Source: Planctomycetaceae bacterium (lineage in GTDB: Bacteria; Planctomycetota; Planctomycetia; Pirellulales; Pirellulaceae). From it: 48,205 bases of DNA. Every line of letters begins with the position of its first letter. The stretch's first letter is position 1. A program made the position numbers and the translations under genes. Below the pieces are notes generated by a model. The model was not told where the DNA came from. It did not search any database and saw only the letters and a program-made list of their open reading frames with translations. Shown here piece by piece: positions 26,198 to 43,318 of the stretch. Location of the stretch: positions 1-48,205 of the forward strand of contig JAHEJI010000015.1 of assembly GCA_024638965.1 (NCBI GenBank), written 5' to 3'.

Positions 26198-26213
26198 GCA
26201 ATTGGCGTGCCAA
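26198..26213 (-). promoter_or_regulatory. Sigma-54 (-24/-12) promoter upstream of tandem Usp
   Basis: Read on the minus strand the sequence is TTGGCACGCCAATTGC: GG and GC separated by ten bases, matching TTGGCAC-N5-TTGC. Transcription would begin near 26186 and run toward the tandem Usp gene. A GTGGACAA-TTT-TTGTCCAC palindrome at 26333-26351 lies about 125 bases upstream, a usual distance for an activator site. Confidence 0.75.
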
Positions 26214-26332
26214 CATCTGTTTCGTCATTTAATGCTACTGGATCCGACTGCGGTTCAACCGTCGTTTCAACCCTAGCGCGGGTGGCAACCAAGCTACCAG
26301 TTTGAGATTGAGGCGCGCAGGCGCTGAGCGGC

Positions 26333-26351
26333 GTGGACAATTTTTGTCCAC
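26333..26351. promoter_or_regulatory. Perfect palindrome, possible activator site
   Basis: GTGGACAA and TTGTCCAC are perfect reverse complements around TTT. It is placed about 120-140 bases upstream of the minus-strand sigma-54 promoter. I found no copy of it at the other sigma-54 promoters, so its assignment as an enhancer is weak. Confidence 0.35.
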
Positions 26352-26451
26352 CTCGAGCATTCGAAGATCTACCGCGGAATCGATGTCGTCGGTAAAACCA
26401 GCTTGAACTGGTTTGCCACAAGATCGTGCAACATCAAAATGGCTGAAAATC

Positions 26452-26471
26452 TTGGCAAAATTTCATGCCAA
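26452..26471. promoter_or_regulatory. Inverted repeat TTGGCA-N8-TGCCAA
   Basis: Perfect six-base arms 8 bases apart, about 37-56 bases upstream of the plus-strand -24/-12-like site. The GG-to-GC spacing inside it is 11, so it is not itself a good sigma-54 promoter; an operator is more likely. Confidence 0.3.
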
Positions 26472-26507
26472 CAAAATTTTGGAAAACTTTTTGCCGATGA
26501 ATTCTTC

Positions 26508-26523
26508 TGGCACAGTACGTGCA
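26508..26523 (+). promoter_or_regulatory. Weak sigma-54-like promoter toward small basic gene
   Basis: TGGCACAGTACGTGCA has the ten-base GG-GC spacing but GTGC in place of TTGC. It points to the small basic gene at 26799, which would then have a leader of about 265 bases. Confidence 0.4.
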
Positions 26524-26798
26524 ATTCGTCATTCAGTGTTTTGTCGGAAACGGCATTGCATGACGGATAACGGCCCGAGTACTCCATGGCTGATTTAGAT
26601 TCAGTTGGGGTGCGGAGGCCGGCCGTCGCCGATCTTCAGCAACTAGTCGGATCGACTGCCTAAAGCGCGAATTGGCCGGGCATCGCACCTGCCCACAAAC
26701 CGTGTAAAGAACGAGTAAACCGACAGACACGAAGAGATCAGCGACGGCCCCGTCATGGTAAACGGAGCTCTCAGCGTTCAAATTTCAAGGAACAAACG

Positions 26799-26942
26799 AT
26801 GTCTGTAAGCAAAATGGAAAAACGAAACGTGGCTCGTATGAATGCCGAACAAGCAAAAGCCAAAAAGAAGCAAGTACGCGAAACGAAAATGTCAGCACCA
26901 GTCAAAAACAAGAAAACGGCCAAGGCTGCGAAACGAAGATAG
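26799..26942 (+). CDS. Very basic 47-residue protein, unknown function
   Basis: A small gene supported by AAGGA seven bases before its ATG. It encodes 47 residues, of which about 19 are Lys or Arg (MSVSKMEKRNVARMNAEQAK, then AKKKQVRETK, ending KTAKAAKRR). The lysine/alanine-rich tail resembles histone-like or nucleic-acid-binding tails, but no family is recognised. It stands alone in a gene-poor stretch, followed by a possible second basic ORF and a hairpin terminator. DNA or RNA binding is inferred from charge only. Confidence 0.6.
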   Translation: MSVSKMEKRNVARMNAEQAKAKKKQVRETKMSAPVKNKKTAKAAKRR

Positions 26943-26984
26943 TCCTTGGGGCTGGTCAACTCTTTCGTCTCCACGATTTTTGGA

Positions 26985-27146
26985 ATGCTGAACATGGTTC
27001 GTGAAAATAAGCGTTTCTCGTTAAAAAAATGGAATCATTCGTCACGTCCAAAGATTTCTCAGAGTGAACGCAAAAGACGCGTCAAACAACGTGAAATCCC
27101 AAGACGAAAAGCCTGGAGCTCCGAGCAATCCTCATTTGACGAGTGA
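26985..27146 (+). CDS. Possible second small basic protein
   Basis: A 53-codon ORF from the ATG at 26985 (a second ATG at 26994), rich in Lys and Arg (VRENKRFSLKKW, then SERKRRVKQREIPRRKAW). It follows the 47-residue basic gene and ends before the terminator-like hairpin. The ribosome-binding site is weak (GGA nine bases before the second ATG). It may be chance ORF. Confidence 0.3.
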   Translation: MLNMVRENKRFSLKKWNHSSRPKISQSERKRRVKQREIPRRKAWSSEQSSFDE

Positions 27147-27271
27147 CGCTTCCGGTTTGGTAAACACCAAGCGATGACACCCCGGAGATACGCGCGGCTC
27201 CACTTAACCGCTGAAGTTGCCCATCCGCCTAACCTAATAATGGCCAAAGCATCATCAGCGATTCCATAGAG

Positions 27272-27305
27272 CAAATGCCGGATGACTCAAAATCACCGGC
27301 ATTTG
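27272..27305 (+). terminator. Terminator-like hairpin after the small basic genes
   Basis: CAAATGCCGG (27272-27281) and CCGGCATTTG (27296-27305) pair perfectly over ten bases around a 14-base loop, followed by TTTGTTATT. On the plus strand it would end the small basic transcript; it could also act weakly for the minus-strand operon ending at 27400. Confidence 0.55.
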
Positions 27306-27399
27306 TTTGTTATTCGGGCTGATCACAAAAAATTAATGGTTTTTTCGAAACAAACGGTTCGCGTGTGTAGCCATGTGATCTAGTTGGATTTAACGGTCG

Positions 27400-28470
27400 T
27401 TAACCTGTTGGCTCAACGATCAGCAAGTTGGAAGAAAGCTCTTCCACGACTCGCTCTTCCAAGCCGTGTTCTTTGACCCGCAACTTCCTGAGTTCAGACG
27501 GCTTGATCTTGGTGGGCAACCTGCCCAGATTGCAAATTGGATCGCCAGGGCTAATGGCGGGTAAGGTTGTCATCCCAATTACAATCGAGTTATAAGGCGC
27601 GTAAACCGTGTAGCGATCCCGACCGAGCAAATTCGTGTTGGTGGTGAGGGCTTGCCCTTCTTCGACCACTTCACCTGGTTTTACGTGAAATTCGAGAAAG
27701 CCACCTTTTTCCGCACGAATCCATTTTGACTTTTTGACCACAACTTGATAGTCGGGGGATTCTGGCGCAGTCTCCAGCATGTCCAATTCGCAAAGGACGT
27801 TTTTGATGCCCCGGTTTGACGCCTCCACAATCCCTGGTTCAACCTTGAAGACCTCTCCCGCTTCCATGACGATCGTATGACATCCCGCGATGCAAGCTTC
27901 GCGGCGAAGCGACTTTGCAGGCCCCTTTCCGTCCATGATAATCTCGCAACCAAATGCTTCGGCGATTCGTTTGACTTCGGGATGACTCAAGTCCCCTCGA
28001 ACGTTCGGATAGTTGGTGCGACGAATCGCGGCCGTATGTAAGTCGATTCCATAATTTGATCGCACGACAATTTCTTCGAAGACTGTGTTTGCCATCCGCG
28101 CAGCCAAACTACCGTCGGCGGAGCCGGGGAAAGCTCGATTCAAATCACGGCGATCCGGCAGGTAACGTGAATGTCGGTCAAAGGCAAGGATGTTGAGGAC
28201 CGGAACCAGAATTACTGATCCCCGAGCTAGTTCTAACGTGTCATCTTGAACCAGTTGGCGAATCGCGCCGGTGCCGTTGATTTCGTCGCCGTGCAGGGCT
28301 GCGGTGACGAAGACGACCGGCCCGTCTTCCTTGGCACGACGAACGTGGACGGGAATGTTGATCGTCATTCCGCTGTAGCTTTCAGTGACGGCCAGAAAAA
28401 TGTCTTTGGATTGGCCTGGCCCGATCATTTGACCATTCCAGTCACCAATCGGTTTTCGATCGTATTGCAT
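27400..28470 (-). CDS. Succinylglutamate desuccinylase/aspartoacylase family (M14-like) hydrolase
   Basis: A 356-residue zinc hydrolase. Zinc ligands: H60 and E63 in LHGDEINGTG and H145 in GIDLHTA; RDLNRAFPG near 108-117 is the substrate-binding arginine motif. The C-terminal third (about 265-345) is a beta-rich part with WIRAEKGGFLEFHVKPGEVV, as in other long members (COG3608). Known members cleave N-acyl amino acids. As third gene after rimB and rimK, it may trim or recycle glutamate-type tags or peptides; that link is inferred from gene order, which I have seen in other bacteria. Confidence 0.88.
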   Translation of the reverse strand: MQYDRKPIGDWNGQMIGPGQSKDIFLAVTESYSGMTINIPVHVRRAKEDGPVVFVTAALHGDEINGTGAIRQLVQDDTLELARGSVILVPVLNILAFDRHSRYLPDRRDLNRAFPGSADGSLAARMANTVFEEIVVRSNYGIDLHTAAIRRTNYPNVRGDLSHPEVKRIAEAFGCEIIMDGKGPAKSLRREACIAGCHTIVMEAGEVFKVEPGIVEASNRGIKNVLCELDMLETAPESPDYQVVVKKSKWIRAEKGGFLEFHVKPGEVVEEGQALTTNTNLLGRDRYTVYAPYNSIVIGMTTLPAISPGDPICNLGRLPTKIKPSELRKLRVKEHGLEERVVEELSSNLLIVEPTG

Positions 28471-28527
28471 GGATTGTTCGCTTTCACATCGAATTCGGAT
28501 AAACTCGTCTGGAATTGAGTGCCGGCT

Positions 28528-29757
28528 TCAATCGGCGATTGTAGTTGCCGATTCCTCGATAACTTGGTGGGCAACCGGTAGATCTGGTAATTCTTGAACG
28601 TCCGTTTTGCGTCGCCTACGGATTTTTGGAGGAATCAAATCACGCATCAATTCGAGTTTTCCAAAGCACAGGATTCGGTCGTCGATTGACAGTTGACGAC
28701 TTTTCTTTGGGTTCGGAATGACCTTTGTTCCTTGCGTCAACGTTAGTACGTTGATGTCTTTTTCTTCAAAGCCGACTTCGTCTAATCGTTTTCCCACATA
28801 TTGCGATCCTTCGGGAATAAACAACTCGGCCACACCATATCCGCGACTGACAGTAAGTCGCTGCCGCAGGTCGATTTCTGGAAAATCGACGCGCGCACTG
28901 ATGTAATCCACAATCGCGCCTGCGATATCAAGTTGTGTACATTGCTCGATGCCTTCCAAGCCGGGTGAAGAGTTGACTTCCATGATTTGCGGACCGTTTT
29001 TTCCTTCCAGCATATCGACACCCGCGACGCGGAGCCCCATGATCTGGGCGGCCCGAACTGCAGTCTCGCGATATTCATCGTTCAACTCAATTGCTTCGGT
29101 CAGTCCACCTCGATGCACATTGCTGCGAAACTCCTGTCCCTGAGCGACTCGTCTCATCGCAGCGACAACCTCATCTCCCACGACAAACGCCCGAATATCC
29201 TTGCCCTTGCTCTCGGATACGAATTTCTGAATCAAGACGTTCTGTTTTTGACTTTGGAGCAACTCAATAATCGCTTCGGCGGACTTAACGGACTCCGCCA
29301 GCAACACTCCGATGCCTTGAGTACCCTCGATCAGCTTGATAATCACCGGCGCTCCACCGACGCGTTCAATGGCTGGGAGAATATCTTTCTTTTCCCGTAC
29401 AAACGTGGTTGCCGGTATGCCAACGTGGTGTCGGCTAAATATTTGCAGGCTGCGAAGCTTGTCTCGCGAGTTGGAGATGCCTGCCGACGAATTGGCGCAG
29501 AATACATCCATTTGCTCGAACTGTCGAACAACGGCCGTACCAAAATAGGTGATCGAAGCTCCAATTCTGGGCAGTACGGCGTCGAATTCAGCGAGCTTTT
29601 TCTGGCGGTAGTAGAGGTCAGGATTGCCCTGCTGTAAATCAATCGACAATTGCTTGGTGTTGATCACCGATACGCGCTGCCCTCGCTGAGTCGCGGCTTC
29701 AACCAGTCTCCTGGTGCTGTAGCATTTTGCACTGCACGACAAAATTCCCAATCTCAT
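28528..29757 (-). CDS. rimK: RimK-type ATP-grasp amino-acid ligase fused to TrkA-C (RCK_C) domain
   Basis: A 409-residue protein; GGAGAT before the ATG at 29757. Residues 1-295 are RimK: N-terminal domain MRLGILSCSAKCYSTRRLVE, ATP-grasp with VIIKLIEGTQGIGV and the metal-binding end GVDMLEGKNGPQIMEVNSSPG. Residues about 310-385 match a TrkA_C/RCK_C ligand domain (VAELFIPEGSQYVGKRLDEVG, then DRILCFGKLELM). A basic tail KIRRRRK follows. E. coli RimK adds glutamates to ribosomal protein S6. The added RCK_C domain suggests control by a small ligand. It lies 36 bases after rimB and 57 bases before the aspartoacylase gene. Confidence 0.9.
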   Translation of the reverse strand: MRLGILSCSAKCYSTRRLVEAATQRGQRVSVINTKQLSIDLQQGNPDLYYRQKKLAEFDAVLPRIGASITYFGTAVVRQFEQMDVFCANSSAGISNSRDKLRSLQIFSRHHVGIPATTFVREKKDILPAIERVGGAPVIIKLIEGTQGIGVLLAESVKSAEAIIELLQSQKQNVLIQKFVSESKGKDIRAFVVGDEVVAAMRRVAQGQEFRSNVHRGGLTEAIELNDEYRETAVRAAQIMGLRVAGVDMLEGKNGPQIMEVNSSPGLEGIEQCTQLDIAGAIVDYISARVDFPEIDLRQRLTVSRGYGVAELFIPEGSQYVGKRLDEVGFEEKDINVLTLTQGTKVIPNPKKSRQLSIDDRILCFGKLELMRDLIPPKIRRRRKTDVQELPDLPVAHQVIEESATTIAD

Positions 29758-29793
29758 AAAATCTCCTAGGTAGAACGTGTGTTAATTTTTAAG

Positions 29794-30471
29794 TTAGGCC
29801 GAACGTTTTCGTTTTTTCTTTTTTCGTTTGGGTTTACCACCATAATACGATCCGCCAGGGTCGACCAGGAAATGTTGCCTTGTGGCTTGGCGACCCAGCA
29901 GCATTCGGAATCCCATTTCATCGCGATTGGCGAGGGTCAGTTCGACGGGCCAAGTCAGTTCCAGCAACTTCACATTCGTAATAATCACGGGGCGGATAGT
30001 CGATTTGCCACTGGAACTCTTGACGGAACGATATTCCAGCACTTTAGCTTCTGTCGCGACGATGTTTTTCTGTGAACGTTGGGCCGGATGGATTTTGAAG
30101 CGCACCCATTTTTCACCCCGTTTGGAAAATTCGCTGAGATCAAACACGTGAAGCGAAGAGGTTCTCGCCCCTGTGTCGACTTTCACTTTGATCCTGCTAA
30201 CGCCCAAGTCAGGAAGTTTGACCCATTCGCGCCAACCAATGACGGGCAGGTCCTTGATATTTCCAATTCTTTTTGTCACGACACTCCTGTTCGCAGTCGA
30301 CTCCAAAGTAATTTTGTACCAAAAGCCGAAGAAATCCGCTGGAACCTGGGGGAATTGCGACCTAATGGCGGTTTGATCTAATTTTTCGCCCAGCCGTTTC
30401 AGCTCCTTTGCGAATATTTCCAAGTCCGCTTTTAATTGTTTTGGCGTAAGCTCAAGTGTTTCGTCAACCAT
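29794..30471 (-). CDS. RimB-like retropepsin-fold protease (ATP-dependent zinc protease, DUF785)
   Basis: A 225-residue protein from the ATG at 30471; a TTG at 30522 is possible but less likely. N-terminal 75 residues form a charged helical part (LTPKQLKADLEIFAKELKRL). The C-terminal domain carries the aspartic-protease-like motif KVDTGARTSSLH (DTGA at 99-102), RPVIITNVKLLE and MLLGRQATRQHFLVDPGGSY, then a tail of Lys/Arg repeats. COG4067 proteins are regular neighbours of rimK; RimB in Pseudomonas removes or limits RimK-added glutamates. First gene of the rimB-rimK-aspartoacylase operon, with a sigma-54 promoter sequence 80 bases upstream. Confidence 0.87.
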   Translation of the reverse strand: MVDETLELTPKQLKADLEIFAKELKRLGEKLDQTAIRSQFPQVPADFFGFWYKITLESTANRSVVTKRIGNIKDLPVIGWREWVKLPDLGVSRIKVKVDTGARTSSLHVFDLSEFSKRGEKWVRFKIHPAQRSQKNIVATEAKVLEYRSVKSSSGKSTIRPVIITNVKLLELTWPVELTLANRDEMGFRMLLGRQATRQHFLVDPGGSYYGGKPKRKKKKRKRSA

Positions 30472-30551
30472 ACCAAACGGACTGTATTCGCTGCGAAACT
30501 GGCCAACGATTGGACTCGGCAACAGTAATGTGTACTATGAATCAACTTAAA

Positions 30552-30567
30552 TGCAATTGATGTGCCA
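30552..30567 (-). promoter_or_regulatory. Sigma-54 promoter for the rimB-rimK operon
   Basis: On the minus strand TGGCACATCAATTGCA, with GG and GC ten bases apart and a full TTGCA. Start of transcription would be near 30541, about 70 bases before the rimB ATG. Confidence 0.8.
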
Positions 30568-30612
30568 TTTCTGCATTATCACAGATCCAGCAATTTCGGT
30601 ATGGCAATACGT

Positions 30613-30634: not shown

Positions 30635-30685
30635 CGCCTTGGTCATTAATTGACCGCCCCGAGCAATTCCTGTTCAGGCTTTCGG

Positions 30686-32191
30686 TCACTCAACGATCCG
30701 CCGGATGCCGATCCCCAGCTTGTTGACCTTGCTGCGAACGGTGGTGCGGGTGATTCCCAGACGTTTGGCAGCTTCCGTTTGATTGCCGCCGCATTGGTCA
30801 AGCATTTCCGCCAACAGTTTACGTTCGACTTCTTCGATGACGTCATCGTAAAGCGTTGGAGAGTTAGCGATACGATGACGTGCTATTAGATGCTCAACGG
30901 ATTCCGCTGACGGTTCCAACACGGATTCAGCATTGGCTTGATTCTGCTCTTTAACCTGTGCGATTGACGGATCAGGCTCGGGCAGGGCCAGATTTGGATC
31001 ACCCGAAACAAGCGTTGGAAGGAAATCAGCCACCAAAACCGTCCCATATGATTGTAAAACAGCTTGATGGATGACATTTTGAAGTTGTCGGATGTTTCCA
31101 GGCCAGTCGTACTGCTTCAGCTTCGCAATTGCGTCTGGCGCAACCGCTTTGAGCTCTTTGCCGAGTTCCTCGTTGGCAGTTTTTCGGAAGTAGTCAATCA
31201 AGAGCTCGATATCGTCGACACGATCACGTAGTGGCGGAAGTTTGATGGAATAGCCGTTCAAACGATAGAACAAGTCCTCGCGAAACTTGCCCTCCTTGCA
31301 GAGCTGTTCAATGTTTCGATGGGTCGCCGCCAAAATCCGCACGTCCGCGGTCAGGACTTCATTACCACCGACGCGTTGGAACTGTTTTTCCTGAAGGACG
31401 CGAAGCAGTTTGCTTTGCAGCGTCGCGTCCATGTCGCCGATCTCGTCAAGGAATAACGTGCCACCGCTGCATTGTTCAATTTTTCCGATGCGTTGCCGAT
31501 CGGCCCCAGTGAAGGAACCTTTTTCGTGGCCGAATAGTTCGCTTTCCAGCAAGGCCTCCGGGATCGCGGCGCAATTGATTGCCAAAAAAGGCTTTTCGCT
31601 CCGAGAACCGTTTTGAAATATTGCTCGGGCGACTAGTTCTTTGCCAGTGCCACTCTCTCCTCGAATCAGAACCGAAATATTCTGGGCAGCCACGCGGCCG
31701 ATCGCCTTGTAAACTTGCTGCATTCCTTCACAACAACCAATCATGGCGGAAGAGGAAATCGTCGGCTGGTCGGTCGCGTCAATCTCCACGGTCTCGACCA
31801 TCATTCGACGAACATCCAGGGCTTGTCGTACGACCTTGTTGAGTGAACGCACATCCAATGGCTTCAGCAAATAATCCAAAGCACCCAGTTGCATGGCTTG
31901 AATTGCCGTATGGCTGTCGCGACTGCTGGTCATCACGACGACCGGCAGTTGAGTATCGATCGTCTTAATTTTCCGAAATACATCCAGCCCGTCCTGATCC
32001 GGCAATAGGACATCCAACATCACAGCATCGGGCTGTTTAGTCTTGATCGCTTCGATTGCAGTTGATCCCGAATCGGCACTTAGGATTTCGATCCCGGAAT
32101 TGACGAAAACATGCCGAAACAGAGCAACAATTGCCGGTTCATCATCGATAACCAGCAGTTTTATTGTTAGCTCGGAACTGGACTCACTCAT
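30686..32191 (-). CDS. NtrC-type sigma-54-dependent response regulator
   Basis: A 501-residue protein from the ATG at 32191; a GTG at 32233 is less likely. Domains: receiver (about 10-125) with LLVIDDEPAIVALF and the phosphorylation site in VMLDVLLPDQDG, AAA+ sigma-54 activation domain (about 150-390) with Walker A GESGTGKELVARAIF, sigma-54 contact loop GSFTGADR (Ser for the usual Ala), Walker B GGTLFLDEIGDMD, and a Fis-type helix-turn-helix end GGNQTEAAKRLGITRTTVRS. Role: activates sigma-54 promoters on phosphorylation. Third gene of the VKOR-PP2C-NtrC operon, itself behind a sigma-54 promoter, which suggests self-control. The hybrid kinase at 35254 is the likely partner. Confidence 0.93.
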   Translation of the reverse strand: MSESSSELTIKLLVIDDEPAIVALFRHVFVNSGIEILSADSGSTAIEAIKTKQPDAVMLDVLLPDQDGLDVFRKIKTIDTQLPVVVMTSSRDSHTAIQAMQLGALDYLLKPLDVRSLNKVVRQALDVRRMMVETVEIDATDQPTISSSAMIGCCEGMQQVYKAIGRVAAQNISVLIRGESGTGKELVARAIFQNGSRSEKPFLAINCAAIPEALLESELFGHEKGSFTGADRQRIGKIEQCSGGTLFLDEIGDMDATLQSKLLRVLQEKQFQRVGGNEVLTADVRILAATHRNIEQLCKEGKFREDLFYRLNGYSIKLPPLRDRVDDIELLIDYFRKTANEELGKELKAVAPDAIAKLKQYDWPGNIRQLQNVIHQAVLQSYGTVLVADFLPTLVSGDPNLALPEPDPSIAQVKEQNQANAESVLEPSAESVEHLIARHRIANSPTLYDDVIEEVERKLLAEMLDQCGGNQTEAAKRLGITRTTVRSKVNKLGIGIRRIVE

Positions 32192-32298
32192 GCCGTAAAG
32201 GTTTTCTTGACGAATATTTTTGCATTTGCACACTGCGATATGCCCAAACCGCCTAAATCGCGAATATCTGCAAACCGGCTGTTACGACGCGTGTCGAG

Positions 32299-33126
32299 TT
32301 ATTCTATCGTATCGCCAGATTCGATGTCCGACATATCCAGGCGGATGCGATGAGTATTGAGCTCAAAATCATCGACGTCAAGAATACGGATGACAATCGC
32401 AGTGATATTGTCCTTGCCGCCGCAGCCGTTGGCGAACTGAACGAGTGAATCAGCGATGACATTTACGTGATTGCCGGAGAGCATTTCAGCAACCTCCTGC
32501 TCGCCTGGAAAGTAGTTGCTCAGCCCGTCGGTGCACAAGAGCAGGACATCGTGCTGCCGGGCTTCAAACATCAGCGTTTCGACGGCGACCGAGTCGTCGT
32601 TTCCCACCGATCGAGTCAGGCAATGTGAGAACTTTTGGATGAGGGTGGGATCAAGATCCTCGTATTTTGAGACCATTTCATTGTAAATCGTATGGTCAGT
32701 CGTCAACAAATACACTTCATCTTTTCGTTTCAAATAGAGCCGCGAGTCACCGACGTGACCGACAATGGCATTGCCGTCGATGATCATCAACATCGTTAAC
32801 GTGGTTGCCATCCCGTCAAGGTTTGGGTCAGAGTCGGCAATTTCCCGGATTTTGCGGCAAGTCTCGTGAATCGCGCGTTCAACGAGCTGGGTCAGTTTGT
32901 AGTAGCCGATAGGATTTTTGTTGGCTTGCTCAACTTCAGACCAGTGTTCGCAAAGGTATGCAAGCGTAAATTCAACAGCATTATGAGACGCAACTTCGCC
33001 CGCTGCTTGTCCGCCCAGTCCGTCACAAACGATAAATAACCCCTTGGAGTTATCGACGTAAAAGTAGTCCTCGTTGATCTTGCGATACTGGCCGACGTCG
33101 GTTTGAGCCGAAGATTCATAAATCAT
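32299..33126 (-). CDS. PP2C-type Ser/Thr phosphatase
   Basis: A 275-residue cytosolic phosphatase with metal-binding motifs TDVGQYRKINEDYFYV, LFIVCDGLGGQAAGEVAS (about 31-48), VGHVGDSRLYL, CTDGLSNYFPGE and GGKDNITAIVIRI. AGGAC precedes the start. Family members reverse Hanks-type kinase phosphorylation. It lies between the VKOR gene and the NtrC-type gene; a kinase is encoded at 38476, with its own PP2C. Confidence 0.93.
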   Translation of the reverse strand: MIYESSAQTDVGQYRKINEDYFYVDNSKGLFIVCDGLGGQAAGEVASHNAVEFTLAYLCEHWSEVEQANKNPIGYYKLTQLVERAIHETCRKIREIADSDPNLDGMATTLTMLMIIDGNAIVGHVGDSRLYLKRKDEVYLLTTDHTIYNEMVSKYEDLDPTLIQKFSHCLTRSVGNDDSVAVETLMFEARQHDVLLLCTDGLSNYFPGEQEVAEMLSGNHVNVIADSLVQFANGCGGKDNITAIVIRILDVDDFELNTHRIRLDMSDIESGDTIE

Positions 33127-33235
33127 TTTTGTCCTGGTTGTGTGGGTTTGGTTAGACGACTAGCACTAGACCGGTGCTAATTTCGACTTTCAGAATCGCC
33201 TTCGAACGGATTCAGTGCTCTGAAACGAGGCGCAG

Positions 33236-34717
33236 CTATTTTCCCTGCTTTTGAATTACATCGAGCAAAGCATCGCCCGATGTAAACTCACCGACGATGG
33301 TGGTGCCAGGAAACATAAGTTTAGGCACGGTTCCCGAGCCAAATCGCTGATAAAGTTTAACATGTTGGGCAATATATTGACTCGGAGTTTGACTCGAAAA
33401 TTCTGTTTCCAGTTTCTCACTTAGCGATGGCTGATTTCCATCCTTCGCATTGCCCAACATCTCGATGGCTTTGGCTTTGGATTCAGCGAATGTCGCATTT
33501 CCCGGCGTGGTCATCAAATACTCGTGAAACTCGGGGAACTTTACTGGTGCGACCCGCCAAAAAGCAATTGCCAATTGAGCTATTTCACAGGCCTCGGCCA
33601 TGCGAGGTCCCGTCGCCGTAATGGCCGAGTTGCATTTGGTATTCAATGGCACGGGCAAAACAATGACGGCGAGGTCGTCACCTAACTTTTGTTTTGCGGC
33701 CGAAATTGCAACGTGGGTCCGACGACAGTGGTCGCAAGTGTAATCAAACATCTCAATAAAGACGTGCTTCGCGTCCGGCTTCCCGAGTAGCGGCCATTGA
33801 TTGATATCGAGCTGAAAGCTACCCCCCTGCACCGAAACCAATCGACGATTCACTGGGTTTTCACTCGGGTTTGCTTTTTGTGTTGCTGACTTTGTATTTC
33901 CGTTGGTCTCCTGAGTTGTTACGATCATCGCAGACAACGTCGACGGGCTAACGAGGGATGCAATTTGCATTTTTGTGCGGAATAAAAGTGAGAGTTGGTT
34001 ATCGGTCGCCCCGCCTGAATCAGCCGGAGGAATAAACTCGAAAATTTCGCCTGAATTTTCAGTGTCGCTTGGTTCGTCGTGCTCAATGAATTGGTAAGTG
34101 ACCGGCTTGAATAGCAACTGGCCGCCACCCAGCATGCCAAAACCAACCAGGCTCAATAGAGCAAGGTTGCGGATGGTTTTTATTCCCAACGGACGGGTCC
34201 ATATCAAAATGCCTGAGATGAATAATCCGCAGGTGTGCGCGGCCAAGCAGTAATTACACAGGTGCTTGACGACAAAAATCTGGAGTGACGTGAACCAGAT
34301 CGCGGCCAATCCAGCAGACAAGCCTCCTAAGATAACAATGGTCCAGGCGATCGAACGCATCCATGCAGGTGTTTGACGGATCGAACCTACCACCGTAGCA
34401 GTGAGGACGGATAGGTAGAGTCCCAGAGCCAACACGCTCACCGGAAGGCCCAACCATCGCGACCAGCGGCTGTTAACCACATCGTTACAGTCAAAGATTT
34501 GCCCACCACCGCATCCCGCGATTTTGGAGGACGACATGGCAACGGTGACGAGGTAGGCTGTAATCCCCAAGGCAATCACGCTGGCAATGGCAATGGCCCA
34601 GCTTGCTCGGACAGAAGGATACGTCAATCCCTCAAACTCGACACTCGCTGAAAGAGGGCTTCCTGGTTGAGAATCAGACGGGAACAAGTCGGCAGTTGAT
34701 TCGATTGATTGATTCAT
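33236..34717 (-). CDS. Vitamin K epoxide reductase-DsbA-type thioredoxin fusion
   Basis: A 493-residue protein from the ATG at 34717; the GTG at 34768 lies too close to the sigma-54 promoter to be used. After a 35-residue tail, about 40-190 form the VKOR four-helix membrane domain: the loop cysteines GCGGGQIFDCNDVVNSRWS and the active CNYC (LCNYCLAAHTCG). The C-terminal part (about 295-480) is a periplasmic thioredoxin fold with CDHC (FDYTCDHCRRTHV). Such fusions form disulfides by passing electrons to quinones, replacing DsbA/DsbB. Its place at the head of a signalling operon is unusual. Confidence 0.92.
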   Translation of the reverse strand: MNQSIESTADLFPSDSQPGSPLSASVEFEGLTYPSVRASWAIAIASVIALGITAYLVTVAMSSSKIAGCGGGQIFDCNDVVNSRWSRWLGLPVSVLALGLYLSVLTATVVGSIRQTPAWMRSIAWTIVILGGLSAGLAAIWFTSLQIFVVKHLCNYCLAAHTCGLFISGILIWTRPLGIKTIRNLALLSLVGFGMLGGGQLLFKPVTYQFIEHDEPSDTENSGEIFEFIPPADSGGATDNQLSLLFRTKMQIASLVSPSTLSAMIVTTQETNGNTKSATQKANPSENPVNRRLVSVQGGSFQLDINQWPLLGKPDAKHVFIEMFDYTCDHCRRTHVAISAAKQKLGDDLAVIVLPVPLNTKCNSAITATGPRMAEACEIAQLAIAFWRVAPVKFPEFHEYLMTTPGNATFAESKAKAIEMLGNAKDGNQPSLSEKLETEFSSQTPSQYIAQHVKLYQRFGSGTVPKLMFPGTTIVGEFTSGDALLDVIQKQGK

Positions 34718-34777
34718 TGTTTGTTTTTCTTTTCCGTGAAATGCGTATTCGCAAATTTCGTAACTCACACGTCATTC

Positions 34778-34793
34778 GCAATCACCGTGCCAA
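34778..34793 (-). promoter_or_regulatory. Sigma-54 promoter for VKOR-PP2C-NtrC operon
   Basis: On the minus strand TTGGCACGGTGATTGC, ten bases between GG and GC. Transcription would start near 34766, 50 bases before the VKOR ATG. Confidence 0.8.
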
Positions 34794-34883
34794 TTCAAAA
34801 ATCCACGACATTTCTGGATGAAGTTCCGTTCTGACGGGTACGAATTGACCGCTGCGAACAATATCTATTCGCGCGAACAGTGG

Positions 34884-35117
34884 CTAACCACTCAGAAGGT
34901 TATCACCATCAAAAAGCCTTGGATGGACTAAATCCGAACCACTGCCTTCATCGACCGATGGCGACGACCAACCAGGCAACTCACCGCGCTGAATTCGGAC
35001 GTTTTGCGGTGCTTCAACTCCCAGCCGGATGACCTCGCCTTTTACACGGCACACGTGAATCAGGACGTCGTTTCCAATCTGGATGGTCTGATTCTGTTTG
35101 CGACTCAACACTAACAT
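34884..35117 (-). CDS. csrA: Carbon storage regulator CsrA
   Basis: A 77-residue RNA-binding protein; AAGGA stands seven bases before its ATG. It begins with the invariant MLVLSRK and continues with GEVIRLGVEAPQNVRIQRGEL, the core strands and the R44-equivalent region. The last 25 residues (after GEL) are an extra acidic/polar tail not found in the 61-residue E. coli protein. CsrA binds GGA motifs in mRNA leaders to block or stabilise messages. It is divergent from the hybrid kinase and has its own sigma-54-like promoter. Confidence 0.95.
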   Translation of the reverse strand: MLVLSRKQNQTIQIGNDVLIHVCRVKGEVIRLGVEAPQNVRIQRGELPGWSSPSVDEGSGSDLVHPRLFDGDNLLSG

Positions 35118-35159: not shown

Positions 35160-35175
35160 TGCAGTTTTTGTGCCA
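35160..35175 (-). promoter_or_regulatory. Sigma-54-like promoter for csrA
   Basis: On the minus strand TGGCACAAAAACTGCA, GG and GC ten bases apart, with CTGC for TTGC. Transcription would start near 35149, about 30 bases before the csrA ATG. Confidence 0.7.
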
Positions 35176-35195
35176 GATCAAATAAACAGCTTTGT

Positions 35196-35211
35196 TGGCA
35201 CGGGCATTGCA
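35196..35211 (+). promoter_or_regulatory. Sigma-54 promoter for hybrid histidine kinase
   Basis: TGGCACGGGCATTGCA is a full match to TGGCAC-N5-TTGCA. It is divergent from, and 20 bases from, the csrA element. Transcription would start near 35222, about 30 bases before the kinase ATG. Confidence 0.85.
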
Positions 35212-35253: not shown

Positions 35254-38200
35254 ATGAGTGAATCTCATCCATCGAGCGGCTTGAAAATCACGCCGATTAA
35301 GTGCCCGGGATTTCTGTGGGACGTGACCATGATAAAACGTAAAGATTCGCTGGCATTTGATCCCCATCGCACGAAAGATATCCCGATTGAGCAGCCCGCC
35401 ATGACATCTCAACTGATTTTCGACTTTGCCGACCTGCCCCAGAATTCGATTAGGCGACAGACAACGGCGGTGGAACAGCTTTGCATTCTGTGTGGTCTGG
35501 GGAGACGGCCAAGTCGACGCGTTTCCAAAGCGACGTTTGCTGTGCTTTCGAACCATTCGTTGGAAGATTTTGTCGAGAATTCCATTTACCTGGAACACGC
35601 AAATGGAATTTGGGCGCTTGTATTTCGATTTGCGACTCGGCCGTTGGCAATTGAAATGAATGGAAATCAGGATCGCGCGACAACCAGCCTTCGCAGATTG
35701 GGAGAAAAACTCGAGGGATTTGACATCGGCGGCTCGCCAGCAGAAGGATTTGATATTTCTTTCCAACAATCACTTGCAACCGACTTCGTTCCACCCAACA
35801 AGCGTGATTTGAAGCAGTGGCGACAGGTCTTTATTGAAGGAGACTGGGAAGCCGCATTTGGGCGATTAAGCCGGCTGTATCTATCAGGCCGAGCGAAAAA
35901 TCAGCAGTTGCGCGATGGCATTTCGATCAAAAAAACCATTCTGGAAAGCGGATCAGGAAACGCCGATGTCATTCTTTCATTAGTCGCCAGTAAAACAGAC
36001 AACGCTGTGATGATTTTTGATACCGGTTCAAATCTCGAATGGGTCAACCAGGCCTTTTCTCGGCAGATGGGTGTTAAATTGCCGGGGAACGGCAAGCTTA
36101 ATGTGCGAGACGTCTTGTTTAGCACTTCCAATCTAGATGCCGAGAAATTCAGTGTGCAGCTTGCGGCGGAAACCAGTTTTGATTGTTGTTTTGTGATTTT
36201 GGGCGAAGATGGCGAGCCGCACGACTTGGACAACGCCGGTGCTTGGTTCGAGTTCCAAATGACACCCGTCCGTGACGAAGATGATCGTGTTGTGCGATGG
36301 ATCGGCATCGGCACAGACATCACAATGCGCCGCCAGGCAGAATTTGCAATGCAAGCCGCCAAAGACGTCGCGGAATCGGGGAGTCGCGCGAAAAGTGAAT
36401 TTCTTGCTATGATGAGCCACGAAATTCGCACGCCGATGAACGCGATCCTTGGCATGACCGAGTTGACATTGGGAACCAACCTCAACGTTGAACAACGCGA
36501 ATATCTGACAACGGCTAACAACTCGGCTCAGTCACTTTTGCAAATTCTTAACGACATTCTTGATCTTTCCAAGGTCGAAGCCCGTCGACTTGAGCTAGAG
36601 CGAACTGATTTCAACCTTGCCGACCTCGTCCGCGAAACTTGCGATGCGTTGGCAGTGCTGGCTCAAAAGAAGGGCCTGCAATTGCATTGCAACGTTCCCT
36701 GGGAAATACCGCAACAATTAGTGGCTGATATGACCCGCATTCGCCAGATCCTGGTTAACTTGATTGGGAACGCGATCAAGTTTACTTCTGAGGGTGCCGT
36801 CGAACTGAACCTGGAATTGACGGATGAAATAAATGACCGCGCGACCATTCATTTCAAAGTGCGTGATACCGGTGTTGGAATCGCCGAAGAAAAAATCAGC
36901 CGGATCTTTGAAGCATTTTATCAAACGGATGCATCCGTCAATCGTCAATATGGCGGGACGGGTCTCGGATTGTCCATCACCTCAGAGCTGGTTCGACTCA
37001 TGGGCGGCCGGATTTGGGTCGAAAGCAAAATCGGAAAAGGTAGCACCTTTCATTTTGTGTTGACGTTTTCCAAATCAACTGAAACGCAACTGGCAGCCAG
37101 TATTCCCGCCCTGGTTGGCAAGCAAGCCTTGCTGTTTTCTGAAAACGAATTGGTTCACGCGAGGTTGAACCACTGGTTGGCGGAATGGGAAGTTCAGATC
37201 CGATCGTCGTTTTCTCCGTCCGAAACCCTTCAATATGATAAATACGATATCGTGCTAATTGACGTGGATAGCCTGGATGAAGAGGCTTACCGACTGGCGC
37301 AAACTCTTACGGAAGAAAACGGCCCGCCGCAGGTGCTGATCTTCTCGCCGGGGGTGCGAATGGCCGCCATCAATCAGTGTCGCCAACTTGGAATTGAAGA
37401 TTATTTAGTCACTCCGGTATCACCCAGATACCTGGCAACGGTTTTACAATGTGCAATAGGTCGTCCAGTTACGGAATTGACGGCGGACGAATTGCAGCTT
37501 GCCGGACAAACGGCAAAACCTACCAATAACCGAAGGTCAACTGAGCCAGCAACCGAACCCGTGTCCGTTTTGGTGGTTGATGATCATGCAGCTAATCGAA
37601 TGTTGATCGCCGAAGTCCTGCGCAAGCGAGGGCATCAGTGGACCGAGGCAACGAGCGGTGAAGAAGCAGTTCAGTTGGTCCAACAACATGACTTTGACGT
37701 GGTGTTGATGGATGTTGAAATGCCAGATAAGGATGGTTTAAAGACGACAGCTGAACTTCGAGTGCTCAAAGGGGATGTCGCTTCCATACCGATCATCGCG
37801 GTTACGGCTTATGTGACGGACGAAGATCGACAGCGTTGTTTGGAAGCGTCGATGGATGATTTCCTTGCCAAACCCATCAACGTTGCTGAACTGCTTGAAA
37901 AAGTCGAGCGATGGGGACGAACCGACCGCTCGGTTCAAGAAGCGAAATCGGAATCTGAGACGCTAGATACCCAGTTGTTGATTCAAGACACACCTGACTG
38001 GGCAACACATATCACTCAGACCATTGTCGATGCGGACAATGGCCTCGAGTCTGAGAGTCCCACCGATTACTTTGACGACGATGTTGGCGATGAGTCGGAA
38101 CAGTTCGCGATTGCCCTGGAACGTTTTGGTGGTGATCAAGAGTTACTCCGCATGCAAATGGACTTTTTTACACAGGGAACTCCCCAGCTGTTGGAGAATA

Positions 38201-38424
38201 TTTGTAAGGCGATCCGCAGCGGAGATGCGCGGGCTCTGCACCATAATGCTCATCGCCTCAAGGGATTGGTCCGGACATTTGATGCGGAATTCGCTGGCGA
38301 ACTGTGCGCTCAACTCGAAGAAATGGGGCAATCAGATTCTCTTGAAAAAGCAAACCCAACCTTCCAATTGCTTGAGTCGGTCGTCGAAGAACTGCAACAC
38401 AAGATCGCGACTTATTCGTCTTAA
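35254..38424 (+). CDS. Hybrid sensor histidine kinase with receiver and Hpt domains
   Basis: A 1056-residue soluble signalling protein with no membrane helix. Order: an N-terminal part of about 245 residues without recognised domain, a PAS domain (about 248-370, GSNLEWVNQAFSRQMG and its PAC end), HisKA with HEIRTPMNAILGM (H389), ATPase (DTGVGIAEE, GGTGLGLSI), a degenerate receiver (about 625-740, IVLIDVDSLDEEAYRLA), a full receiver (about 772-890, VLVVDDHAAN, phosphorylation D820 in VLMDVEMPDKDG, K in FLAKP), then Hpt with H1000 in HHNAHRLKG. This is a phosphorelay protein; the NtrC-type gene at 30686 is a probable target. Cytosolic sensing is inferred from the lack of membrane segments. Confidence 0.93.
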   Translation: MSESHPSSGLKITPIKCPGFLWDVTMIKRKDSLAFDPHRTKDIPIEQPAMTSQLIFDFADLPQNSIRRQTTAVEQLCILCGLGRRPSRRVSKATFAVLSNHSLEDFVENSIYLEHANGIWALVFRFATRPLAIEMNGNQDRATTSLRRLGEKLEGFDIGGSPAEGFDISFQQSLATDFVPPNKRDLKQWRQVFIEGDWEAAFGRLSRLYLSGRAKNQQLRDGISIKKTILESGSGNADVILSLVASKTDNAVMIFDTGSNLEWVNQAFSRQMGVKLPGNGKLNVRDVLFSTSNLDAEKFSVQLAAETSFDCCFVILGEDGEPHDLDNAGAWFEFQMTPVRDEDDRVVRWIGIGTDITMRRQAEFAMQAAKDVAESGSRAKSEFLAMMSHEIRTPMNAILGMTELTLGTNLNVEQREYLTTANNSAQSLLQILNDILDLSKVEARRLELERTDFNLADLVRETCDALAVLAQKKGLQLHCNVPWEIPQQLVADMTRIRQILVNLIGNAIKFTSEGAVELNLELTDEINDRATIHFKVRDTGVGIAEEKISRIFEAFYQTDASVNRQYGGTGLGLSITSELVRLMGGRIWVESKIGKGSTFHFVLTFSKSTETQLAASIPALVGKQALLFSENELVHARLNHWLAEWEVQIRSSFSPSETLQYDKYDIVLIDVDSLDEEAYRLAQTLTEENGPPQVLIFSPGVRMAAINQCRQLGIEDYLVTPVSPRYLATVLQCAIGRPVTELTADELQLAGQTAKPTNNRRSTEPATEPVSVLVVDDHAANRMLIAEVLRKRGHQWTEATSGEEAVQLVQQHDFDVVLMDVEMPDKDGLKTTAELRVLKGDVASIPIIAVTAYVTDEDRQRCLEASMDDFLAKPINVAELLEKVERWGRTDRSVQEAKSESETLDTQLLIQDTPDWATHITQTIVDADNGLESESPTDYFDDDVGDESEQFAIALERFGGDQELLRMQMDFFTQGTPQLLENICKAIRSGDARALHHNAHRLKGLVRTFDAEFAGELCAQLEEMGQSDSLEKANPTFQLLESVVEELQHKIATYSS

Positions 38425-40160: not shown

Positions 40161-41233
40161 CACCGATCACGACCCAGCTATCAGGTGGAAGGATTGTGAA
40201 GCAGACAGAAAAACTAATTGCCGCGATGCGAGCGGAGGATCAGGTTCTCGTCGTGATGCATGACAATCCCGATCCCGATGCGATTGCCTCGGCTTGGTGC
40301 GTGGTCGAATTAGCCCGACATTTTGGTTTGCAAAATGTCCACGCAGTTGCTGGTGGCGCGATTGTTCGAGCAGAAAACAAACAAATGGTGAAGTTGTTGA
40401 ATCCACCAATCAAACTGGTCGCTGATTCCGAATTTCCAAGTGGGCGAGGTTTGGGTGCGATGCTCGTCGATTGTGGTGCAGGCGCCACCAATCACTTTGT
40501 GACCAGGAGTCAAATACGACTGTTGGCCGTCATTGACCACCACCAGCACAAATTATTTGAGCCCAATCATCATTTGTTGTTTCAAGACGTTCGCGAGGTT
40601 GCGGCTTGTGCGTCAATCGGCGCCAGCTATCTCATCGAAAACGACGTCGTGCCCTCCTCGAAGTTGGCGACGGCCATATGGTACGCCTTGCGAACGGAAA
40701 CGTGCGCCTATGAGTCGAGGTATACTGCGCTTGATCGCGACGTCTTGATCTGGGCGACGACATACGGTTCCCCGTCGCTGCTTGCCGAAATCGAAAATGC
40801 GCCCCTGGTTCGTGTCTATTTCACGGATCTTGTTAGAGCCCTCAAGAATACTCGTGTTTATGGTGACGTTGCAGTATGCTGGTTGCCTCAATCGCAGGGC
40901 GTTGAAGTTGTCGGAGAAGTCGCTGATCTACTTGTTCGCGATGAAGAAGTTCACCGCGTCCTCTGTGGAACCGAGCTTGAGGATGCGGCCTTTGTCTCGG
41001 TCCGGACATCTCCTCACGGCGGCAATGCAACTTCTTTGCTACTTGCGACTTTGGATGGCCTCGGGCACGGTGGCGGGCACGATCATCGAGCCGGCGGAAA
41101 GATTGTTCCGGCATCGACAGATTTGACCAGTGGCAAGCCGTTGGCGCAACAAGTCATCCTGCGGTGGTTGTCGGTAAACAATGTTGAGGATGAAAAACCA
41201 AGAGAACTTTTGGATTCATCGTCGATTGTTTGA
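40157..41233 (+). CDS. DHH-family phosphoesterase (NrnA-like)
   Basis: A 358-residue metal-dependent phosphoesterase. DHH motifs: VVMHDNPDPDAIASA (about 33-47), VDCGAG (near 98), VIDHHQH (near 121), and the DHHA1 end GHGGGHDHRAGG near 315. Known relatives degrade nanoRNA, pAp or cyclic di-AMP. The motif set and length fit NrnA-type enzymes; which substrate is used cannot be read. It overlaps the PP2C stop by four bases, so kinase, phosphatase and this enzyme are one coupled operon. Linking signalling phosphorylation to nucleotide turnover is inference. Confidence 0.88.
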   Translation: MTPITTQLSGGRIVKQTEKLIAAMRAEDQVLVVMHDNPDPDAIASAWCVVELARHFGLQNVHAVAGGAIVRAENKQMVKLLNPPIKLVADSEFPSGRGLGAMLVDCGAGATNHFVTRSQIRLLAVIDHHQHKLFEPNHHLLFQDVREVAACASIGASYLIENDVVPSSKLATAIWYALRTETCAYESRYTALDRDVLIWATTYGSPSLLAEIENAPLVRVYFTDLVRALKNTRVYGDVAVCWLPQSQGVEVVGEVADLLVRDEEVHRVLCGTELEDAAFVSVRTSPHGGNATSLLLATLDGLGHGGGHDHRAGGKIVPASTDLTSGKPLAQQVILRWLSVNNVEDEKPRELLDSSSIV

Positions 41234-41312
41234 CAAACGACTTTTCGCTAGCAATGAAGTTGGCTGAACTTCGTTATTCCAGTTCGCGCCTTTTAGATGA
41301 AACAATACTTTC

Positions 41313-42695
41313 ATGACTCATTCCAAAACTGACGCAGTACCTGACGACATCAGTGAGCAGTTACAGCATGTTGTTAAAATGCTCGAATCTGGCGACCTCG
41401 AGAATGCCAAACAAGCAGTCGACTCAATGGTTTCGGCCAATCGTACTGTCGTACTCTCGCGACTGCCTGAGCAACTTCGTCAACAATTTTTAATCGGCAT
41501 CGATCCGGAACGCGCGGCGACTTATTTACATAACTTGCCTGAAGTCCAGGCAGTTGAGCTATTGGGCGAGATCGAACCTGCGGCTGCCGCTGGTATTCTC
41601 GAGGAGTTGCCCAAGAGCGAACAAGCCGACCTGGTTGGGGAGCTTTCCCAGCGTTCGATGGATTCCATTCTCTTGGAGATGCCTGCGCGAGACGCGTCCA
41701 CCGTTCGGACGCTGGCTGAATACGAGGATGAAGAAGCCGGCGGCATCATGGTCGTCCGTTTTGTGGCCGTGGACGAAACACAAACGGTGAGGCAGGTTGT
41801 CGACAATCTACAAGCAAACGCTGCAATCTATTCAGATTTTTCCGTGCAATACGTCTACGTCGTGGATCGGTTGGGAAAAATCAAAGGCGTCTTGCCCCTT
41901 CGAAGTTTGCTGCTTTCACCGGGAAATGTCTTGGTGACCGACGTTATGATTCGCGAACCACTTTCTGTTTCCGTACATACGCCTCTCAAAGACCTTCATC
42001 AATTCTTTACAGAACACAAATTCGTCGGCGTTCCTGTTGTCGACGAACAAGCCAGGCTTGTCGGTGTTCTGAGCCGCGGTGATGTAGAAGAAACCATGGC
42101 CACACATTATGCGGAAGACTACCTGAAGACACAGGGCATCGTGAATGAAGAGCTGCGTACCATGCCATTGGTTCTTCGTTCGCGTCGGAGGCTGGCTTGG
42201 TTAAGCATCAACATTTTCCTGAACATCATTGCAGCCAGCGTGATTGCCTTTTACCAGGAGACGCTGGCCCAAGTCATTGCCCTGGCCGTTTTCCTGCCAA
42301 TCATTTCCGACATGAGTGGATGCAGCGGCAATCAAGCGGTGGCCGTCAGTATGCGAGAACTTTCACTGGGATTGGTCGATGCCAATGAAGTCATCCGTGT
42401 TTGGATTAAGGAGCTCGGCGTCGGGTTGATCAACGGATTTGCGCTCGGCTGCCTGATTGCCGCGGTCGCATTCTTGTGGAAAGGCAATCCGTGGTTGGGG
42501 GCGGTCGTCGGGTTGGCGATGATGACCAATACGATTGTGGCAGTTTCGCTGGGTGGCACGTTACCGTTGATCATGCGTCGCCTAAACATGGATCCGGCAC
42601 TTGCCTCCGGTCCCATTCTGACGACCGTGACCGATATGTGCGGGTTCTTTCTCGTCCTTAGCTGCGCGGCATTATGGATCGAGAAATTGGTTTGA
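41313..42695 (+). CDS. mgtE: MgtE-type magnesium transporter
   Basis: A 460-residue protein with the MgtE order: helical N domain (LPEVQAVELLGEIEPAAAAG, about 75-95), two CBS domains (about 135-265), plug helix and five membrane helices (about 290-455) containing the selectivity region LPIISDMSGCSGNQAVAVSM and a final PILTTVTDMCGFFLVL. N and CBS domains gate the pore by cytosolic Mg2+. It begins 80 bases after the DHH gene and may share that transcript. A CorA-type channel is also in the window. Confidence 0.94.
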   Translation: MTHSKTDAVPDDISEQLQHVVKMLESGDLENAKQAVDSMVSANRTVVLSRLPEQLRQQFLIGIDPERAATYLHNLPEVQAVELLGEIEPAAAAGILEELPKSEQADLVGELSQRSMDSILLEMPARDASTVRTLAEYEDEEAGGIMVVRFVAVDETQTVRQVVDNLQANAAIYSDFSVQYVYVVDRLGKIKGVLPLRSLLLSPGNVLVTDVMIREPLSVSVHTPLKDLHQFFTEHKFVGVPVVDEQARLVGVLSRGDVEETMATHYAEDYLKTQGIVNEELRTMPLVLRSRRRLAWLSINIFLNIIAASVIAFYQETLAQVIALAVFLPIISDMSGCSGNQAVAVSMRELSLGLVDANEVIRVWIKELGVGLINGFALGCLIAAVAFLWKGNPWLGAVVGLAMMTNTIVAVSLGGTLPLIMRRLNMDPALASGPILTTVTDMCGFFLVLSCAALWIEKLV

Positions 42696-42726
42696 TTTCA
42701 ACTGACTCTCATCTTTGGTTGGCCAC

Positions 42727-42742
42727 TGGCACAGTTATTGCA
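42727..42742 (+). promoter_or_regulatory. Sigma-54 promoter for single Usp gene
   Basis: TGGCACAGTTATTGCA: full -24/-12 match with ten bases between GG and GC. Transcription would begin near 42753, 44 bases before the Usp ATG. It supports the ATG at 42797 over the upstream TTG at 42770. Confidence 0.85.
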
Positions 42743-42796
42743 ATGTGGTCAACAAGTTGAAACACGTTATTGAAAAGAACCCCAGCTCAATATGCC

Positions 42797-43174
42797 ATGA
42801 AAATACTTGTACCGACTTCAGGCGTCCCTCCGGCACGCCAGACCGCATGCTACATAATGGAAATCGCGTCGGCGATCGACGCAGAAATACTAGCTCTGCA
42901 CGTGGTTCGTCCCGGGCACGCATCCGAAGCCGGTGAGTTGTGTCTGGAAATCATGAAAACTGCCGCACAAGAGGCCAACGTCGCAGTCGAATGCATGTTG
43001 TGCCACGGTCCGATCATTGATGAAATCATCGAAGTGGCCGAAGGCCGCCAAGCAAATCTGATCGTAATGGGAGCCAGCAATGGTTTCGTTTTAGAACGAT
43101 GGCTGAGCTCTGAGATTTGCGGGAACACACGAGTTCCAGTTGTGGTGATCCCCTACCAGGTCTTCGACAAGTAA
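42797..43174 (+). CDS. Single-domain universal stress protein
   Basis: A 125-residue Usp domain from the ATG at 42797. It begins MKILVPTSGVPPARQTACYI and ends with the strand VPVVVIPY. The nucleotide-binding region is LIVMGASNGFVLERWLSSEI; the usual G-x2-G-x9-G(S/T) is altered (GASNG, and Ser-Ser later), so ATP binding is doubtful. A sigma-54 promoter lies directly upstream. Together with the tandem Usp at 24967 it marks this island as a stress response region. Confidence 0.9.
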   Translation: MKILVPTSGVPPARQTACYIMEIASAIDAEILALHVVRPGHASEAGELCLEIMKTAAQEANVAVECMLCHGPIIDEIIEVAEGRQANLIVMGASNGFVLERWLSSEICGNTRVPVVVIPYQVFDK

Positions 43175-43302
43175 TTCAACAATGACCCGGAAGAATGCAG
43201 ACTTGGCTCGCGGCGCGGGCACTGTTTAACCGCACTGGGCAATAACTACTCGGCCGGCATCGCCCATCGATGTAAATTCGGGCTATTATTTTATGATTTG
43301 GC

Positions 43303-43318
43303 TGGCATAATCATTGCA
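43303..43318 (+). promoter_or_regulatory. Sigma-54 promoter for unknown gene and MscK-like channel
   Basis: TGGCATAATCATTGCA: GG and GC ten bases apart, only the -24 last base differs (T for C). Transcription near 43329 excludes the TTG at 43298 as the start of the next gene. Confidence 0.8.

Follow-up and report, generated by a model that had tools for sequence, protein, structure and literature searches.

What controls a group of sigma-54 promoters that lie close together in the draft genome of a bacterium of the family Planctomycetaceae? They are located in a stretch of 48,205 nucleotides, hereafter the window, which is the entire contig C6 (GenBank JAHEJI010000015.1) of a draft genome of 5.72 Mb in 292 contigs with 88.6% completeness. 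The initial annotation had described seven sites of the form TGGCAY-N5-YTGC and had united the genes behind them in a single regulon: two Usp proteins, the rimB-rimK operon, a VKOR-DsbA fusion, a PP2C phosphatase, an NtrC-type activator, csrA, a hybrid kinase, and an MscK-like channel. As set out below, the cluster very probably constitutes one autoregulated, enhancer-dependent (sigma-54) regulon of the NtrC type, because the sites are in excess over chance, a palindrome is common to several of the promoters, the promoters are kept in rearranged relatives, and the palindrome is associated with one form of an activator helix.

A scan of both strands for full matches to TGGCAY-N5-YTGC returned exactly seven sites, all those annotated, at positions 26198(-), 30553(-), 34778(-), 35161(-), 35196(+), 42727(+), and 43303(+). 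The chance level had been put at about 1.5 sites, which was too high: 100 dinucleotide shuffles of the window gave a mean of 0.41 and a maximum of 3 matches, and none reached seven. When one mismatch was permitted, 16 matches were found versus 11.5 expected, and eight shuffles reached 16; since this is close to the chance level, only the full pattern is informative. The draft genome contains 97 exact sites versus 48 for the reversed pattern, and the seven sites of the window compare with approximately 0.8 expected from the genome (P ~2e-5, calculated after the fact). Using our own codon-based gene caller, we classed 96 distinct genome sites (one duplicate was dropped) within the window and the stretches around the other sites. 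Although only 19% of this sequence is intergenic, 53 of the 96 sites lie between genes, and for 42 of these a co-oriented gene follows at less than 400 bp. Over the sequence classed, the pattern thus has an intergenic density about five times that within genes, and the equal density inside genes that the initial annotation had considered does not hold. In the window, as had been proposed, all seven sites are intergenic and correctly oriented, the gene lying less than 400 bp away, and they carry the GG-N10-GC core within TGGCAY-N5-NTGC upstream of a gene. The genome has a single rpoN gene (one PF04552 match, E 3.5e-61). The chance controls, the intergenic placement, the single rpoN, and the conservation in relatives described below together make the window sites look like real sigma-54 promoters.

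Four of the seven promoters, those towards the tandem Usp gene, rimB, VKOR, and the open reading frame (ORF) before MscK, are preceded at 68-139 bp by a 19-bp palindrome, GCGGNCAA-N3-TTGNCCGC, in one or two copies. Specifically, the motif scan placed candidate activator sites at 26333..26351 (GTGGACAATTTTTGTCCAC) for the tandem Usp promoter TGGCACGCCAATTGC (26198..26212, minus strand) and at 30639..30657 (TTGGTCATTAATTGACCGC) for the rimB promoter TGGCACATCAATTGC (30553..30567, minus strand). Tandem copies approximately 20 bp apart were found at 34854..34891 (GCGAACAATATCTATTCGC and GCGAACAGTGGCTAACCAC) for the VKOR promoter TGGCACGGTGATTGC (34778..34792, minus strand) and at 43215..43253 (GCGGGCACTGTTTAACCGC and CTGGGCAATAACTACTCGG) for the ORF-MscK promoter TGGCATAATCATTGC (43303..43317, plus strand). 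The motif, GCGGNCAAtnaTTGNCCGC, was derived from the sequences preceding 17 promoters, i.e., seven of the window, three of G060, and seven of G073, the latter two being genomes of the same genus. At a width of 17, its log-likelihood ratio was 62.0, versus a mean of 37.4 and a maximum of 47.8 for 30 dinucleotide-shuffled sets. A motif was also trained on the 10 promoters of G060 and G073, with the window left out. When it was run over all 48,205 bases of the window, ranks 1 to 5 fell on 26333, 34854, 30639, 43215, and 34873, and rank 7 fell on 43235, so that six of the top seven lie 68-139 bp upstream of reported promoters; rank 6, at 3560, is away from any site. The binomial chance of this ranking is ~2e-9, provided that the matches are independent.

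Among the other sigma-54 sites of the genome, a palindrome of at least 12 bits accompanies one of 46 intergenic and none of 43 coding sites. The single case lies before a gene for a PRC-barrel protein on contig C259, and it is also one of just two zero-mismatch matches to GYGRNCAAWNWTTGNYCRC in the genome, the other being 26333. The gene occupies positions 1027-1515 of the stretch examined there (L312); the sigma-54 site, which is exact, follows 177 bp after the palindrome. This gene is the only clear candidate for regulon membership found beyond the window. The palindrome occurs with two mismatches at 112 places in the genome versus 68 for a control. All 10 one-mismatch palindromes in the genome lack a promoter (at most one mismatch) 20-400 bp downstream, and eight of them lie inside genes; the palindrome by itself is therefore insufficient for naming targets.

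The comparison with related planctomycetes recommended in the initial annotation bore out the promoters, which precede the same genes despite rearranged gene order. Among 27 other genomes of the genus, the activator was found at 68% identity or more in three, G086 (94%, partial), G060 (70%), and G073 (68%). In G073, where gene order differs from that of the window, exact promoters precede ORF-MscK, VKOR-PP2C-activator, and the kinase, and one-mismatch promoters with a purine before TGC precede the tandem Usp and Usp1 genes. G060 has exact promoters before rimB and a Ser/Thr kinase gene and a purine-before-TGC promoter before the tandem Usp gene, and G086 has exact promoters before VKOR, rimB, and the tandem Usp gene, the last with one spacer change. 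The order VKOR-PP2C-activator is the same in the window, G073, and G086. When four promoters were compared with their G086 counterparts, 0 of the 40 constrained bases and 4 of the 20 spacer bases had changed (p 0.01). In G245, a member of another genus, RimB (65% identity), PP2C (69%), and the activator (73%) are encoded on one 4.6-kb contig, where rimB and PP2C-activator are each preceded by an exact site. On that contig (L486, C234), the two promoters are divergent across two weaker palindromes (11.1 and 11.5), and the RNA unit described below is convergent to the activator gene. Forty stretches around homologues of the activator in other genera (41-57% identity) yielded 45 exact sites versus 11 for the reversed pattern. 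As side observations, the rimB promoter of G086 (L171, 222-1056) is kept but lies approximately 665 bp from rimB, the sequences diverging soon after the promoter, which may reflect an insertion or a lost gene. In G060, contig C1 holds 11 exact sigma-54 sites in 60 kb (270001-330000; L250, L175, and L251), a run that continues past the common cluster, taking in further activator and kinase genes that are without the palindrome, and is perhaps a second clustered sigma-54 system.

The activator gene (30686..32233, minus strand) encodes a receiver (PF00072), a sigma-54 AAA+ domain (PF00158), and a Fis-type helix-turn-helix (HTH; PF02954), the domain make-up of the group I bacterial enhancer-binding proteins (NtrC, ZraR, and AtoC type), in which tandem palindromic sites upstream of the promoters are likewise familiar. 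It contains GESGTGKE and GSFTGA, which we take to be its Walker A and GAFTGA-loop motifs. Unlike the named members of this group, it remains below the equivalog cut-off for NtrC (TIGR01818, 486.2 versus 558.6) and below those for ZraR and AtoC in NCBIfam, and it has GSFTGA in place of GAFTGA, as does its G245 counterpart. Ser may be tolerated at this position of the loop. The helix TTVR(S/T)KVNKLGIGIR is kept in the window, G086, G060, G073, and G245. The activators of G080 and G068 carry TTLRSKIKKLGIQI there, and none of the four exact sites in these two genomes has an upstream palindrome of at least 12 bits; in the other-genera stretches, only two of the 45 exact sites have one, and all ten helices examined differ. 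The palindrome thus occurs with one form of the putative DNA-binding helix, in five genomes of two genera.

When any base was accepted for Y before TGC, exactly one more site appeared in the window, a promoter overlooked in the initial annotation (TGGCACAGTACGTGC, 26508..26522, plus strand), which has a purine before TGC. It stands back-to-back with the tandem Usp promoter, the palindrome at 26333 lying between and being common to both, so that a common upstream site is present at four of the seven reported promoters and at five of eight with 26508(+) included. It would drive a leader transcript (26533..26798, plus strand; fold z -3.2) with a conserved hairpin (26571..26621) of invariant CGGCC-CGA and GGA-GGCCG flanks and a sequence-variable stem, leading into a Lys-rich ORF of 47 amino acids (aa; 26799..26942) and a basic ORF of 50 aa (26994..27146). 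Over 461 bp from 26500, identity to G086 is 95%, versus 93% for the mostly coding stretch 32100-34933. The hairpin recurs in G060, G073, and G245 with identical flanks but a different stem sequence, each folding alone into nearly the same form, and in these genomes and G086 it is preceded by a TGGCAY-N5-RTGC promoter with a palindrome of at least 13.4 bits 89-179 bp upstream. The Lys-rich ORF, 47-55 aa long across genomes, is conserved in G086, G060, and G073 and was not seen in G245; the second ORF is conserved in G086, G060, and G245 and was not seen in G073.

Among 241 genomes of the family, 11 had a match to a hairpin model at E 0.1 or lower, of which five are convincing (window, G086, G060, G073, and G245), four of these having built the model. 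G245 was found through the model (E 3.3e-8). Because the model contains no promoter or palindrome information, the promoter, palindrome, and activator helix of G245 are an out-of-sample confirmation. The six other matches (E 0.02-0.08) had no sigma-54 site and no palindrome of at least 12 bits in the 3 kb examined. The exact hairpin pattern matched at least 118 stretches of named genomes; none of the 80 listed has a sigma-54 site within 300 bp upstream, and these are therefore regarded as GC-rich chance matches. A covariation count on the three distinct hairpin rows, reached by 22 of 500 shuffles, is not decisive alone. No Rfam family matched the window at gathering score, the single weak hit being a virus leader (E 0.37, 17.7 versus 70 bits), and the small ORFs had no match in Pfam, NCBIfam, or PHROGs. 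It is possible, though less likely than not, that the unit represents a novel kind of structured leader RNA driven by sigma-54, with an invariant CGA/GGA internal loop and a covarying stem, and one or two tiny Lys/Arg-rich proteins, forming with RimB/RimK and CsrA a translation-remodelling arm of a stress or dormancy programme; its GGA motifs would possibly be read by CsrA.

How far a single regulon extends over the cluster is a separate matter. The explanation that competes best, a serious if minority possibility, holds that the sigma-54 promoters are genuine but answer to several activators, the palindrome marking only the tandem Usp, rimB, VKOR, MscK-ORF, and RNA units. The promoters towards csrA (TGGCACAAAAACTGC, 35161..35175, minus strand), the hybrid kinase (TGGCACGGGCATTGC, 35196..35210, plus strand), and Usp1 (TGGCACAGTTATTGC, 42727..42741, plus strand), which have no palindrome of at least 12 bits within 200 bp in the window, would then be under others. 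The genome offers 13 other activator domains above 100 bits, plus one of 98.9 bits interrupted by a contig end, and 9 of the 11 exact sites in the G060 stretch are without palindrome, so that not all clustered sigma-54 promoters there belong. On the other hand, the window and G073 both have a palindrome beyond csrA, at ~310-370 bp (about 360 bp in G073) from the promoter of the kinase, a placement that would suit a remote enhancer for the kinase but is not proof of one; in G060, the kinase is preceded by a one-mismatch site with a palindrome 91 bp upstream; and in G073, Usp1 and VKOR have a palindrome in common. The single regulon as first annotated is supported for the tandem Usp, rimB, VKOR, and ORF-before-MscK promoters by their common palindrome; csrA, the hybrid kinase, and Usp1 may be members, with weaker backing; PP2C and the activator would be included through the predicted VKOR-PP2C-activator operon.

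Further observations also weigh against one regulon. When only the seven window promoters were used for training, an unrelated motif emerged. An exact rimB site is found upstream in only 3 of 47 listed genus and order loci, those of the window, G086, and G060 (the G086 match, split into two fragments, was counted once; some loci have truncated upstream sequence, one of them only 16 bp). In the relatives' stretches, exact sites accompanied by a palindrome of at least 12 bits number only two out of 11 (G060) and three out of five (G073). Conversely, a promoter at a distance of 30-200 bp downstream is missing for 5 of the 10 such palindromes of the G073 stretch and for 1 of the 3 of the first G086 stretch, and the 716 kb surrounding homologues of the activator in other genera contain 16 palindromes of at least 13 bits.

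It is improbable that the palindrome is bound by another protein, encoded elsewhere. The link to the clustered activator draws on neighbourhood and co-conservation, which leaves room for such a protein; against it, the palindrome tracks one helix form in the five genomes, no palindrome of at least 12 bits was found upstream of the exact sites of G080 and G068, where the helix differs, and 68-175 bp is the usual enhancer spacing for this activator class. The clustered activator is probably the protein that binds the palindromes. It is hardly credible that a GC-containing pattern has clustered seven times here by chance: the reversed-pattern count would allow up to about half of all genomic matches to be fortuitous, but the shuffled expectation, the intergenic placement of all seven, the ranking of palindromes at promoters, and the conservation of promoters in G086, G060, G073, and G245 speak against it.

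In the autoregulated single regulon that we favour, the activator would be made from the VKOR-PP2C-activator operon, which it would also switch on. It would bind the 19-bp palindromes, and from there its AAA+ ATPase would act on the sigma-54 RNA polymerase that waits at a TGGCAY-N5-NTGC promoter at a distance of 68-175 bp, turning on the Usp proteins, RimB/RimK, disulphide formation, the mechanosensitive channel, and the leader RNA with its two small basic proteins. The adjoining Hpt-ended hybrid kinase is the likely candidate for the phosphate donor.

The gene names of the initial annotation were confirmed by Pfam. On the minus strand, the rimB-rimK-astE-like block (27400..30522) comprises RimB (29794-30522, PF05618), RimK (28528-29757), and an AstE/AspA-like protein (27400-28470); RimB does not reach the NF052261 equivalog cut-off (132 versus 200). 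The activator gene is preceded by those for PP2C (32299..33126) and the VKOR-DsbA fusion (33236..34768). CsrA (34884..35117, minus strand) passes PF02599 (66.3 versus 27) but not the TIGR00202 equivalog cut-off (58 versus 70.1). The hybrid kinase (35254..38424, plus strand) has PAS, HisKA, HATPase, receiver, and Hpt domains, and it is followed on the same strand by the single-domain Usp1 (42770..43174) and the MscK-like channel (44012-47551). Pfam further identified a second PP2C, a Ser/Thr kinase, DHH, and MgtE. Distances from promoter to gene, annotated as 30-205 bp, differ when measured to in-frame starts: 43 bp for both csrA and the hybrid kinase, 28-115 bp for Usp1, 30-81 bp for rimB, and 244-304 bp for the tandem Usp gene. 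The annotated VKOR GTG start lies only 9 bp after its promoter, and the long ORF at 43298 starts 20 bp before its own promoter's end; the true starts are therefore probably ATG 34717 for VKOR and ATG 43403 or 43445 for the ORF before MscK. The tandem Usp protein (24967..25953, minus strand; PF00582) is separated from its promoter by a region (25900-26200) that has sharply diverged from G086. Because G086 has a short Usp-like segment at this place, the window may once have had a first Usp gene that has since decayed. Between the tandem Usp gene and CorA lies a 75-aa LapA-domain protein (24679-24906, minus strand). At 5224-13965, genes for HlyD-like, peptidase M50, and outer membrane efflux proteins are adjacent and possibly form an export system.

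BarA-type tripartite kinases are linked to CsrA, and the window kinase resembles them in its receiver and Hpt domains and in adjoining csrA. It differs from BarA in score (460.8 bits versus a cut-off of 890) and in its apparent output, which is a sigma-54 activator instead of a regulator of the UvrY type. As described in PMC6075780, the QseE/QseF-GlmY system of E. coli is similar in that a two-component activator drives a small RNA from a sigma-54 promoter via upstream sites; the RNA of the window, unlike GlmY, leads into small ORFs. Sigma-54 sites before csrA, Usp, and MscS genes of planctomycetes are already predicted in print: according to passages of PMC12316311, predicted targets in Planctomycetia are enriched in UspA, MscS, CsrA, histidine kinases, and ZraR/NtrC-type regulators, much as in the window, and the csrA promoter was predicted in Pirellula sp. 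strain 1 (Studholme and Dixon 2004, as cited there). Those passages contain no common activator palindrome, single clustered regulon, rimB-rimK or VKOR promoter, or RNA element. In Rhodopirellula, an excerpt of PMC2754498 reports two MscS genes as salt-induced and rpoN as down-regulated. A search at the level of titles and abstract openings found no literature on this activator, the palindrome, a planctomycete sigma-54 link to rimB-rimK, or the RNA, which is not proof of absence. The regulon is therefore of a known kind with new content, the additions being a putative binding motif, a candidate target outside the cluster, and a predicted RNA unit.

For planctomycetes, the analysis goes beyond listing predicted sigma-54 promoters: it delimits a regulon that has a candidate activator, a putative binding motif, and testable targets and that would join RimB/RimK, disulphide formation, a mechanosensitive channel, and Usp proteins in one response, with CsrA as a probable further member. 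It adds a predicted structured RNA and two conserved putative microproteins without a family match in Rfam, Pfam, NCBIfam, and PHROGs; if the tentative proposal made for them is true, the leader RNA, the small proteins, RimB/RimK, and CsrA would be a ribosome- and translation-remodelling arm. Finally, the joint change of enhancer and helix across genomes would provide a handle on how such activators gain specificity.

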